A stretch of 64,000 bases of DNA from Neiella marina (GTDB taxonomy: Bacteria; Pseudomonadota; Gammaproteobacteria; Enterobacterales; Neiellaceae), in contig NZ_NGNS01000016.1 of NCBI RefSeq assembly GCF_002165625.1, positions 1 to 64,000 of the forward strand, read 5' to 3'. Under the pieces are notes generated by a model, which saw only the letters and a program-made list of their open reading frames with translations, did no database searches and had not been told where the DNA came from. The position numbers and the translations under genes were made by a program. Of the stretch, positions 9,955 through 15,604 are shown piece after piece (within the stretch, counting starts at the first letter, position 1; each line of letters opens with the position of its first letter).

Positions 9955-12900
9955 TTATGCTGCCGAGTGAATATCCTCTATCTCGGCGTTGGGTTTCTCC
10001 GGCTCAGCAACGCGACGACGGCGATTGAAGAACCCACTGACATTGGCGCCGATCATCAGCAGACACGGCGTCAAAACCAATGTCAGAACCGTCGCAAAGG
10101 CCAAGCCGCCAGCAACCGCGGTGGCCAGTTGCGACCACCACTGAGTAGACGGAGCGCCATGCTGGATGGTTCGAGCCATCAAATCGATGTTCACTTCCAA
10201 CACCATAGGTAGCAAACCTAGAATCGTCGTTACCGTGGTCATCAACACTGGCCTAAGACGCTGCGCACCAGTGCGCAGAATTGCTTCGCGAGCGCTCATG
10301 CCTTGGCGGCGCAACACGTTAAAGGTATCGATCAACACAATATTGTTGTTGACGACAATGCCTGCCAGCGCAATCACGCCAATGCCCGACATCACGATGC
10401 CAAAAGGTTTTTGGAATATCAGCAGACCGAGCAACACACCGACGGTAGAGAACACCACAGCACTGAGAATCAAAAACGCTTGATAGAAACTATTGAACTG
10501 GGTGACCAAAATAATGGCCATGACAAATAGCGCCACCATAAAGGCATTTTGCAAGAATGCCGATGACTCATCTTGCTCTTCATTCTGGCCCTTCACTTCA
10601 ATATGCACGCGAGGATCAATGCCAAGATTTGGCAGCTGCTCTTGCAGCTTCGGAAGCTCAAGATTGAGCAGCGCGCCGGGGATCAGGTCGGCACTAACTG
10701 TCACCACTCGCTTACCATCGACACGACGGATGGTATCGAGCTTCTTCTCCGGAGTACGTTGAACAAAGTTGGTGATCGGTACCTGACCGGCATAGGTCCG
10801 CACTCGAAGTTCATCCAACCGCCCTAAGTGACGTTTCTCTTCTGGGAAACGCACCCGAATGTCTAGTTCATCATCGACATCATCAGGGCGGTATTCGCCC
10901 AACTTGAGGCCATTGGTGACCATTTGCACCGTCGCACCGAGAGTGGTGACATCAGCACCAAAGCGCGCAGCATCGGAGCGATCAACTTTTAACTGCCACT
11001 CAATACCGGGTTTACTACCATCATCATCAATGTTGGTGAAGCTGCCATTCTCCGCTAACGCATGGCGCACCGTGCGTACGGCGTCATTGACTAAATCGGG
11101 GAATCGAGAACTGAGCTGCAAACGTAGATCTTTGCCGCCGCCGGGGCCGTTTTCATCCTTACGGATCTCGATTTCGACGCCTGCGATATCGGCGGTCGAG
11201 GCGCGAATTTCATCGATAATAGTGTTAGCTGTACGGCGCTGATCCCAGTCAATCAAATTAATCCGAAAATAACCTATTTCGCCATTGTTACCAGTCAGGG
11301 TATATAGGGTTTCGATCTCGCCCATATCAACCATGCGCTGTTCAATCTCGCGCATGATGGTGTCTTTTTCATAGACCGACAAATCACCATGGGAGCGGAT
11401 ATGAACATTGGCACCAGACGGTTCAACATCAGGAAAAAACTCAGCACCAAGATTAGACATGATGTAAGCAACGCCAACGCCGATGGCAAACAAGATAGAG
11501 CCAACTAGTACCCATACCGGCCGTTTGATGGCGCCCGACAGAGTACGTAAATAAGTGCCGGTAAAGCCTTTAATGGCCGACACATCGCCCTGTTCGGCCA
11601 GCATTAGTTGCTTTTTCGCCTCAGCACTTACTGGCCGGCTTTTGCCAATCATCGAGCCCAGCGCAGGGACGAAGATGAGCGCCATAAACAAGCTGGCAGA
11701 AAGCGTGGCGATAAGGGTGATAGGCAGATATTTCATGAATTCGCCCATCATTCCTGGCCAAAAGATTAGCGGAGCGAAGGCAGCGAGGGTCGTTGCGGTA
11801 GAAGCGGTAATCGGCCACGCCATACGCTTTGCTGCTTGCAGGTAAGCCTGCTTCCGCGGCAACCCTTCGCTCATGCAACGATCGGCATATTCGGTGACGA
11901 CAATGGCACCGTCCACCAACATACCAACGGCCATAATCAAGGCAAATAACACCACAATATTGACGGTAAAACCCATGATCGCCAGTACCAAAATACCAGT
12001 CAGAAATGAGCCGGGAATAGCGACGCCAACTAGACCTGCACTGCGCAATCCAAGCACCGCAACAATGACAATGACCACCAGCAAAATGGCCGAAAGAACA
12101 TTGTTTTGCAGATCATTGAGCATTTCTTTAACGTCTTCGGAACGGTCGCCGGTGTAAGCCACTTCAACATTTGCTGGCCAAATTTTCTGCTGTTCAGCGA
12201 TCAGTGCTTTAGTTTTATTGACGGTTTCAATGATGTTTTCGCCAGGCCGCTTGACCACTTCTAGTGATACCGTTGGCTGACCATTTAAGCGAGCAAAGGT
12301 GCTCGGATCTTTATAGGCCCGACGCACTGTCGCAACGTCGGCAAACGTAATGACCTTATCGCCATCGACCTTGATCGGCATTTCCATGACGTCGCGAACG
12401 CTTTCAAATACCGATGGCACCTTAACGGCAAAGCTACCCTTGCCAGTGTCCATGGTACCAGCAGCAACCAGACGGTTATTACGAGACACCAAGCTGGCAA
12501 TATCGCCTTGGTCAAGGTCGTAGCTTTCCATCAATAATGGATCGACGATGATTTCAACAATGTCTTCGCGATCGCCACCAATTTTCACTTCCAGAACTTC
12601 TGGCAAGCTTTCAAGTCGGTCTTGGACATCGCGAGCGAGCTGAATCAATGCGCGCTCTGGCACGGGGCCGGCAAGCATTATTGTGATAGCGGGGTTCTCT
12701 TCTGCCATTTTAACTTCGTGAACTGACGGTTCTTCAGTTTCACTTGGCAATTTAGCTTTCGCTAGCGTCACTTTATCGCGGACGTCGGCCAATGCTTCTT
12801 TGGGATCGGTACCGGCAAGAAATTCTAGCGTAACAGAGGCATGACCTTCGCCGGCTCGCGCAGTCATTTCCTTGACCCCTTCAATGGAACGCAGCTCGTT

Positions 12901-13107
12901 TTCCATTGGCCGCACCAGCATGCGTTCAGCATCCTCTGGGCTGATGCCGTCATGAGTCATCGACACATAAATGTAGGGAATCAGAATATCTGGGTTAGAT
13001 TCTTTCGGAATCGACACATAGGTCGAAATACCGGCGATCAGTACCAACACTAACACCATCATGACGGTGCGAGTGCGATTCAGTGAAGCTTCAATAAGTG
13101 CAAGCAT
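9955..13107 (-). CDS. RND-family efflux permease (HAE1-like)
   Basis: A 1050-residue inner-membrane proton-driven exporter subunit. It has the RND layout: one N-terminal helix (MVLVLVLIAGISTYVSIP), a periplasmic loop, six helices, and the same again. Conserved blocks are SNPDILIPY, GMLVDGAIVV in TM4, and VVNNNIVLIDTF in TM10. Compared with AcrB, the first Asp of the TM4 pair is kept (D399) but the second is Gly (G400), and the TM10 Lys is Asn (N920). The partner adaptor gene starts the operon, 9 bp upstream. No outer-membrane channel gene is present, so TolC is probably supplied elsewhere. The substrate cannot be inferred. Confidence 0.93.
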   Translation of the reverse strand: MLALIEASLNRTRTVMMVLVLVLIAGISTYVSIPKESNPDILIPYIYVSMTHDGISPEDAERMLVRPMENELRSIEGVKEMTARAGEGHASVTLEFLAGTDPKEALADVRDKVTLAKAKLPSETEEPSVHEVKMAEENPAITIMLAGPVPERALIQLARDVQDRLESLPEVLEVKIGGDREDIVEIIVDPLLMESYDLDQGDIASLVSRNNRLVAAGTMDTGKGSFAVKVPSVFESVRDVMEMPIKVDGDKVITFADVATVRRAYKDPSTFARLNGQPTVSLEVVKRPGENIIETVNKTKALIAEQQKIWPANVEVAYTGDRSEDVKEMLNDLQNNVLSAILLVVIVIVAVLGLRSAGLVGVAIPGSFLTGILVLAIMGFTVNIVVLFALIMAVGMLVDGAIVVTEYADRCMSEGLPRKQAYLQAAKRMAWPITASTATTLAAFAPLIFWPGMMGEFMKYLPITLIATLSASLFMALIFVPALGSMIGKSRPVSAEAKKQLMLAEQGDVSAIKGFTGTYLRTLSGAIKRPVWVLVGSILFAIGVGVAYIMSNLGAEFFPDVEPSGANVHIRSHGDLSVYEKDTIMREIEQRMVDMGEIETLYTLTGNNGEIGYFRINLIDWDQRRTANTIIDEIRASTADIAGVEIEIRKDENGPGGGKDLRLQLSSRFPDLVNDAVRTVRHALAENGSFTNIDDDGSKPGIEWQLKVDRSDAARFGADVTTLGATVQMVTNGLKLGEYRPDDVDDELDIRVRFPEEKRHLGRLDELRVRTYAGQVPITNFVQRTPEKKLDTIRRVDGKRVVTVSADLIPGALLNLELPKLQEQLPNLGIDPRVHIEVKGQNEEQDESSAFLQNAFMVALFVMAIILVTQFNSFYQAFLILSAVVFSTVGVLLGLLIFQKPFGIVMSGIGVIALAGIVVNNNIVLIDTFNVLRRQGMSAREAILRTGAQRLRPVLMTTVTTILGLLPMVLEVNIDLMARTIQHGAPSTQWWSQLATAVAGGLAFATVLTLVLTPCLLMIGANVSGFFNRRRRVAEPEKPNAEIEDIHSAA

Positions 13108-13116
13108 GGCTGTTCC

Positions 13117-14202
13117 TTATTTCGCTTCTTTGTAAACGGGGATGACTTGGTCACCGGGACGAACAAATCCCTGCCCCATAGTGATCACAGAGACCGAATC
13201 ACCAAAACCGGACAACCAAACACCGTCATTATCCGCTTTAACCAGCTCAATCGGAGTAAAACGCACCACATCGTCATCGACCGACTTGATACCTAGGTTG
13301 CCATCTTCATCCAAAGCCAACAAAGCCGGTGTCACTTGAATGGCATTGACAGTCGCCAGCGGTAATTCAAGCTCAGTGCTTAATCCTGCATACATTTTTG
13401 CATCGGCATTGTCCAACGTCAGCTCGACGCGGAATGTATTGGTAGCGGCATCGGCTACTTTCGATAAGTAGCGGATAGTGCCTTGCTGTAAATTACCGTT
13501 AACAAAACGAGCTTGACCATGTTGGCCAACTTGCAACTGAGAAATATCATGCTGACCAGCATCAGCTCGGATAATCAGCGGATCAATGTCATACACCATG
13601 GCAACGGGGTCGCCAACGCCCAAGTAATCGCCTACTTCCACCATCCGCTCATTCAAAATGCCATCAAACGGCGCGTTGATAATGGTGTGGTTAATTTCCA
13701 GCTGCAAACGAGCCACTGCGGCTTTGGCCTGCTCAAGCTGGGCTTGCGCCTCGGCCAACCGAGCACGGCCAGAGAATCCTTGCGAACTCAACTTTTTGGC
13801 GCCTTGATATTCAATCTGACGTTGAGCAAATTCCGCTTTGGCTTGGTTTAGGCGCTGCTCACGATCATTCATCGCTAAACGAACCAGCGGCTGGCCCGCT
13901 TTAACCGATGCACCACGGACGGCCAGAATTTCAACCACTCGGCCTTCGGTCTCTGCTCGCAAAGTAGCTTCACGATTCGGCTCGGTGCGGCCGTATAAGG
14001 TAATGGCTCGAGTTACGGGTGAGGTTTGCATCCGCTCCACTTGCACTTTAGGCAACAGGCTCGGCTGTTCAGTTTGAGCTTGTGGAGCCTCATTGTTGGC
14101 GGAGCCACTAGCCATCCAAGCCACCAGCAACACACTAATAGTGACGGCTAAGATCCATGGCTTGGCAGACAACACTTGTAGGCCTTGAGAGAGTTTCGAC
14201 AT
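13117..14202 (-). CDS. RND efflux periplasmic adaptor (membrane fusion protein)
   Basis: A 361-residue HlyD/AcrA-type adaptor joining the RND permease to an outer-membrane channel. Residues about 15-33 are a signal anchor (ILAVTISVLLVAWMA). A split lipoyl/barrel-sandwich domain is visible: LRAETEGRVVEILAVRGASV and then INAPFDGILNERMVEVGDYL, separated by an alpha-helical hairpin rich in Ala/Gln/Lys (FAQRQIEYQGAKKL, AQAQLEQAKAAVARLQLEI). A beta-barrel and membrane-proximal domain follow. It is the first gene of the two-gene efflux operon. Confidence 0.93.
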   Translation of the reverse strand: MSKLSQGLQVLSAKPWILAVTISVLLVAWMASGSANNEAPQAQTEQPSLLPKVQVERMQTSPVTRAITLYGRTEPNREATLRAETEGRVVEILAVRGASVKAGQPLVRLAMNDREQRLNQAKAEFAQRQIEYQGAKKLSSQGFSGRARLAEAQAQLEQAKAAVARLQLEINHTIINAPFDGILNERMVEVGDYLGVGDPVAMVYDIDPLIIRADAGQHDISQLQVGQHGQARFVNGNLQQGTIRYLSKVADAATNTFRVELTLDNADAKMYAGLSTELELPLATVNAIQVTPALLALDEDGNLGIKSVDDDVVRFTPIELVKADNDGVWLSGFGDSVSVITMGQGFVRPGDQVIPVYKEAK

Positions 14203-14409: not shown

Positions 14410-14760
14410 TTATACCGAGAATGACGCACCGCAACCACAAGTGGTTGTTGCATTTGGGTTATTAACGAAAAAACGTGAACCCTCAAGGCCCTCGGTGTAA
14501 TCAACGATACCGCCAATAAGATACTGCAAGCTCATTGGATCAATCACTAGGGTGACGTCTTCTTTGTCGATAGTGGTATCGCCGTCATTAACCTTTTCGT
14601 CAAAAGTGAAGCCGTACTGGAAACCAGAACAACCGCCACCGGTGACGTAAACCCGCAGCTTGAGTTCAGGATTCTCTTCTTCGGCAATTAGCGTTTTCAC
14701 TTTTTGCGCGGCGGCATCAGAAAACTGAATCGGCAACGCTGCAACTTCAGGTTGGGACAT
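14410..14760 (-). CDS. erpA: Iron-sulfur cluster insertion protein ErpA
   Basis: A-type carrier that delivers Fe-S clusters to apo-proteins (for example IspG/IspH in E. coli). The 116-residue product carries the three cluster cysteines: one in [11 protein letters not shown] and two in TCGCGASF at the C-terminus. [10 protein letters not shown] is a family hallmark. I chose the start at 14760: GAGG lies 7 nt upstream and the N-terminus then lines up with E. coli ErpA; a start at 14775 would add five residues. A sigma70-like promoter overlapped by an IscR-type site lies immediately upstream. Confidence 0.97.
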
Positions 14761-14788
14761 ACAAACCTCACTCATACATTACCGCGCG

Positions 14789-14817
14789 ATTATCCAATAC
14801 CCGAGTATTTTATTCAA
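14789..14817 (-). promoter_or_regulatory. erpA promoter, sigma70 type
   Basis: On the minus strand the -35 box TTGAAT (14817-14812) and the -10 box GATAAT (14794-14789) are separated by exactly 17 bp. The predicted start of transcription is near 14782, giving a leader of about 20 nt to the erpA ATG. Confidence 0.75.
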
Positions 14818-14821
14818 GTAT
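14797..14821 (-). promoter_or_regulatory. Putative IscR type 1 binding site
   Basis: A 25-bp imperfect palindrome covers the -35 box and spacer of the erpA promoter. Its left half reads ATACTTGAAT and its right half ACTCGGGTAT on the minus strand. It matches 23 of 25 positions of the type 1 IscR consensus as I remember it (ATASYYGACT-RWWWY-AGTCRRSTAT). Overlap with the promoter predicts repression by cluster-loaded IscR. Confidence 0.7.
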
Positions 14822-14866: not shown

Positions 14867-15604
14867 TTAGTAATCCGCCTGAACGATATCGCGCCACTCA
14901 TAAGTCGCCGTCACCGTGCTCTTGCTGCGTGGCATACTGCTGAGCTTAGTTTGCAATTCAAGTTGTTCGGGAACAACATCATCTGGCACTTGAATAATGC
15001 CCTCTATGGTCGTCAGATATCTAAAACTAAATTGCAAGCTGGCCTTGTCAGGCGCTGAGACCAAGGCCCAAGTATCAAACTGCACCGGCTGCTCCGAGCG
15101 GATCCCCAACAACGACATCGACAACTCACCCTTAACTGGTCGATCGAAGCGACCCAATTGAATCAGCGTGATGCGAAAACGAAACACATTGGCGGCATTG
15201 GTGTTGAGCAATGTCACTGTGTCGATCGCCATCACATCATTAGAATCTCCATCGCGAAACACTTTGCGGTATAGGTTGAGCTCCTCAGTGAGCGCCAGCT
15301 TTTCATCGCCGAGTCGCTTGATCTCTTCTTGCAACCAAGTGAGCTCAGCATTGACCATTCTCAACGAGATGTCCTTACTAGAGGTAATCTTTTGATTTTC
15401 CTGAAGATGTAACTCTGCCAATTCGACTTGGCGCTCGGCTTCTTGGCGTTTTTGAATCTCTAGATCATGACCAAATCGACCCGCAACAAAACCGGCCATG
15501 ACGCAAAAGGCCATCACCAGCAACAAGGTTACGCGCCCGGTTCGGAAAACTTCCAGCGCCAATATTCTCTTAATCAAATGATGTAACTGCTTAAGAATCA
15601 ACAT
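14867..15604 (-). CDS. DUF6776-like membrane-anchored coiled-coil protein
   Basis: A 245-residue protein of unknown function. Residues about 20-42 are a single transmembrane helix (VTLLLVMAFCVMAGFVAG), followed by a charged helical region (about 50-110; EIQKRQEAERQVELAELHL and EEIKRLGDEKLALTEEL) likely to form a coiled coil, then a beta-rich periplasmic part. The layout and location between erpA and other housekeeping genes match what is annotated as DUF6776 in pseudomonads and relatives; that family name is a recollection. It diverges from the CLC gene with only about 50 bp between them. Confidence 0.7.
   Translation of the reverse strand: MLILKQLHHLIKRILALEVFRTGRVTLLLVMAFCVMAGFVAGRFGHDLEIQKRQEAERQVELAELHLQENQKITSSKDISLRMVNAELTWLQEEIKRLGDEKLALTEELNLYRKVFRDGDSNDVMAIDTVTLLNTNAANVFRFRITLIQLGRFDRPVKGELSMSLLGIRSEQPVQFDTWALVSAPDKASLQFSFRYLTTIEGIIQVPDDVVPEQLELQTKLSSMPRSKSTVTATYEWRDIVQADY

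Follow-up and report, generated by a model that had tools for sequence, protein, structure and literature searches.

A candidate type 1 IscR operator at the erpA promoter of Neiella marina and its characteristic position 9 letter

Here we report a 25-bp type 1 IscR-like operator at the predicted erpA promoter of Neiella marina, in a window of 64,000 nucleotides (the whole stretch analysed, positions 1 to 64,000 of contig NZ_NGNS01000016.1). With binding, repression and cluster response taken over from E. coli, we put a probability of about 93% on the reading that holo-IscR represses erpA from this site by covering the −35 hexamer and the spacer; by the same analogy, erpA would very probably be switched on when Fe-S clusters run short. 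The site is of a known kind, E. coli erpA already having one, and we regard it as an ordinary but sound find.

The operator lies at 14797–14821 on the minus strand (ATACTTGAATAAAATACTCGGGTAT) and matches 23 of the 25 positions of the type 1 IscR consensus, which we take to be ATASYYGACTRWWWYAGTCRRSTAT and which is borne out by the K-12 record, where the two iscR sites have 1 and 3 mismatches and the nfuA site 2. It has A in place of C at position 9 and C in place of G at position 17. An earlier sequence-only reading had the sequence, the coordinates and the 23 matching positions correct, and described the site as a palindrome covering the promoter. The palindrome is there in imperfect form, with 8 of 12 pairs complementary, and the covering holds for the −35 hexamer and the spacer but not for the −10 hexamer, which begins 2 bp downstream of the operator. 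The promoter itself, TTGAAT-17-GATAAT, was recovered as proposed by a promoter scan of the minus strand, running from 14817 down to 14789, with TTGAAT (14812–14817) within the operator's upstream half and GATAAT at 14789–14794. Only one promoter-like match was observed in 1.3 kb, against a shuffle mean of 1.6, and since this count is not above that of the shuffles the promoter match alone proves nothing.

The downstream gene had been named as erpA, and an equivalog model agrees (196.6 bits against a cut-off of 117). The coding sequence of 116 aa spans 14410–14760 on the minus strand, and its start is likely the ATG at 14760, which has a GAGG at a fitting distance before it and lies 36 bp from the operator's downstream end. 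Transcription is predicted to start at 14781 on the minus strand, as placed by register with positions −19 to −21 of the E. coli site (partial text of PMC5040110), and an alternative longer open reading frame starting at 14775 would be left with almost no leader.

The operator match is not a product of chance, because it is the sole match with three or fewer mismatches in the window, a level reached by none of 100 window shuffles, and one of only two such places in the whole genome of 4,247,794 bases (4.25 Mb), the other being the iscR promoter. No match to the reversed consensus pattern was found anywhere in the genome at the same threshold. Scoring with an IscR weight matrix, suggested as a check alongside the sequence-only reading, placed the site above all controls: a matrix derived from the iscR promoters of other genomes (26 sites, none of them from erpA) gave the operator 31.8 bits, while the best unrelated position elsewhere in the window reached 13.9 bits and 10 shuffled windows peaked at 5.3–14.6 bits. 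The genome's own iscR site scored 30.9 bits.

The interpretation hinges on an iscR gene, and the genome has one. IscR is encoded at G000:C12:304846, directly before iscS, scores above the curated model cut-off, shares 106 identical residues with the 162-residue E. coli protein and retains the ligands C92, C98, C104 and H107 together with E43. Its own promoter carries two abutting 25-bp sites with 2 and 5 mismatches; the E. coli iscR promoter likewise has two abutting 25-bp sites, and in both genomes the motif is the same as that of erpA. The type 1 set of E. coli consists of isc, erpA and nfuA (partial texts of PMC5040110 and PMC8593673), and this set recurs here, with less certainty for nfuA. 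A candidate site upstream of nfuA (L090 997–1021, on G000:C22) is weak, with 4 mismatches where E. coli has 2, lies only 15 bp before the start codon and scores best in the reverse direction.

That erpA is a known IscR target in E. coli, as had been stated, accords with published work in which holo-IscR represses the gene and altering three letters of the site, at −19 to −21, largely abolishes repression (PMC5040110, in the text available); the corresponding letters are retained here as GGG at 14800–14802. The E. coli K-12 promoter, ATACTTGAACGAAATACCAGGGTAT-TA-GATAAT, has the same arrangement, with a 25-bp site over the −35 hexamer and spacer, a 2-bp gap to GATAAT and an A at position 9. In gel shifts from a 2025 paper the E. 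coli erpA fragment is treated as type 1 DNA, and oxidation of the cluster is reported to weaken IscR binding as well (partial text of PMC12594620). By analogy, abundant [2Fe-2S]-IscR would occupy the operator and block RNA polymerase; when clusters became scarce, or were oxidised as the E. coli work indicates, IscR would leave the site and erpA would be transcribed together with isc. The earlier prediction that erpA is released when Fe-S clusters are scarce is thus probably right but may be incomplete, in that oxidation may have the same effect (PMC12594620, in part). In a Yersinia ChIP-seq study the predicted type I sites lacked significant peaks, and the authors partly blame this on the method (partial text of PMC8262890); this result leaves in vivo type I occupancy in other organisms less firmly shown. 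A Shewanella regulon paper places IscR under Fe-S cluster assembly, and the available portion of its main text makes no mention of erpA (PMC3223726). A literature search pairing IscR with Neiella found no paper.

Fifty-nine genomes were searched for conservation, and in 53 of them a full-length ErpA was recovered along with the DNA upstream of its gene. In 32 of the 53 the best upstream site scored above the maximum of 1060 shuffled regions (12.5 bits), and in 29 it exceeded 20 bits by the weight matrix; all six members of the window's own family with an intact erpA were above the shuffle maximum. The operator is identical at 22 of 25 positions in each of two relatives, G001 and G004, and the 59 bp upstream of it are identical at 12 and 15 positions, respectively; unlike the operator, this flanking DNA is not conserved. 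With a limit of five mismatches, sites precede erpA in 31 of 53 genomes and iscR in 50 of 52, and in 28 of the 31 erpA sites the −10 hexamer stands at the same 2-bp distance. The remaining 21 of 53 genomes fell below the shuffle maximum upstream of erpA, most of them nonetheless encoding IscR (G029, G047 and G050, among these 21, gave no IscR match), so the link between IscR and erpA is not universal, and control of erpA by IscR appears to be common among these genomes. The consensus match, a cognate IscR with its ligands, the overlap with a predicted promoter and the conservation at orthologous promoters together point to a type 1 site.

Could the window simply hold a bare sigma-70 promoter, whose likeness to an IscR site comes only from the −35-like and spacer-like letters within the motif? 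The −35 hexamer does lie inside the motif, and promoter-like matches are common, one having been found where 1.6 were expected. Against this, the genome has only one other match at three or fewer mismatches, that at iscR, and conservation across families extends beyond the hexamers to the opening ATAC and the closing GGGTAT; on account of these outer letters we reject promoter letters alone as a simpler cause and consider the bare promoter very improbable. We give an equally small chance to binding by another member of the Rrf2 family. A second such protein is encoded at G000:C51:213-602 and scores 50 bits against the IscR model, below the cut-off; it may be NsrR-like, and the known motif of NsrR differs from the type 1 motif of IscR. 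In addition, 50 of 52 genomes have the motif upstream of iscR itself, which points to autoregulation by IscR.

Least probable of all is type 2 behaviour, in which apo-IscR would also bind the site, possibly as an activator. IscR does act in both ways in E. coli (PMC5040110, in part), but the type 1 score of the erpA operator is as high as that of the genome's own iscR site, and no SufB was found in this genome (98.2% complete), the operon that encodes it being a standard type 2 target. Repression by holo-IscR from a type 1 operator remains our preferred reading. A SufB match was obtained in five of the 59 genomes and in none of the other 54, and most of the set seem to be without a SUF system for apo-IscR to switch on.

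Of the two departures from consensus, the one at position 9 is not noise: an A there typifies erpA operators. Among sites with five or fewer mismatches, A occupies this position in 22 of 31 erpA sites and in none of 50 iscR sites (Fisher p = 5e-13, uncorrected for kinship), and it is on this difference that we regard the apparent mismatch as characteristic of erpA operators. The pattern persists when sites are chosen blind to position 9, with four or fewer mismatches elsewhere (A in 22 of 31 erpA and 0 of 46 iscR sites), and when families are counted by their commonest letter (A in 9 of 14 for erpA, C in 18 of 23 for iscR). E. coli itself has A in the erpA site and C in the iscR and nfuA sites. 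There are exceptions at erpA, families f2 and f17 having C in all five of their genomes and f7, f15 and f23 having T. The two promoters also differ in their hexamers. Out of six letters, the −35 hexamer has 4 matching in 25 of 31 erpA promoters and 5 matching in 44 of 50 iscR promoters; the −10 hexamer has 5 matching in 28 of 31 erpA promoters and 5 or 6 matching in only 12 of 50 iscR promoters. In the sampled genomes, then, iscR sites are unlike erpA sites in having C as the dominant letter at position 9, a stronger −35 and a weaker −10.

A possible, if rather doubtful, reading is that the A is a conserved tuning letter that weakens IscR binding and the −35 hexamer together, with the near-consensus −10 hexamer compensating, so that the cluster threshold or range of erpA would differ from that of iscR under a shared repressor. 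The effect on IscR affinity is what we infer here, and an effect on the promoter alone is equally possible. The position 9 pattern did not turn up in the available portions of PMC5040110, PMC12594620, PMC8262890, PMC3223726 or PMC8593673; our literature searches were not aimed at it. The pattern makes it possible to ask, through a single letter, how the same repressor might set different thresholds for the making and the delivery of clusters.

In E. coli the erpA mRNA is also controlled by RyhB (partial text of PMC5040110), which was not found in this genome, although the RNA model used may miss a distant RyhB. The model matched 15 of 59 genomes and none of the seven members of the window's family. 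An E. coli-type incoherent circuit of IscR and RyhB on erpA has no counterpart here in terms of a detected RyhB RNA, and the circuit seems to consist of type 1 repression and nothing else. These observations carry the type 1 set known from E. coli (isc, erpA and, probably, nfuA) over to a marine lineage where neither SufB nor RyhB was found, and where the holo-IscR arm of the circuit seems to be the only one present. If the tuning reading were true, it would be chiefly the position 9 A that distinguishes erpA from isc in Neiella.

The surroundings of erpA deserve brief description. Downstream on the same strand lie the gene for an RND adaptor (13117–14202, minus strand), at a gap of about 207 bp, and a large open reading frame (9955–13107, minus strand) that is RND-pump-like by its sequence. 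Neither a terminator-like nor a promoter-like match turned up in the gap between erpA and the adaptor gene, and read-through from erpA into the RND genes is possible. Upstream of erpA, where E. coli has clcA on the same strand, the window has an unnamed open reading frame of 245 aa (14867–15604, minus strand), which directly precedes erpA on the same strand and has no NCBIfam match. In a search of the genome collection that detects close relatives only, the sole relative of this protein was from Neiella litorisoli, at 91% identity.
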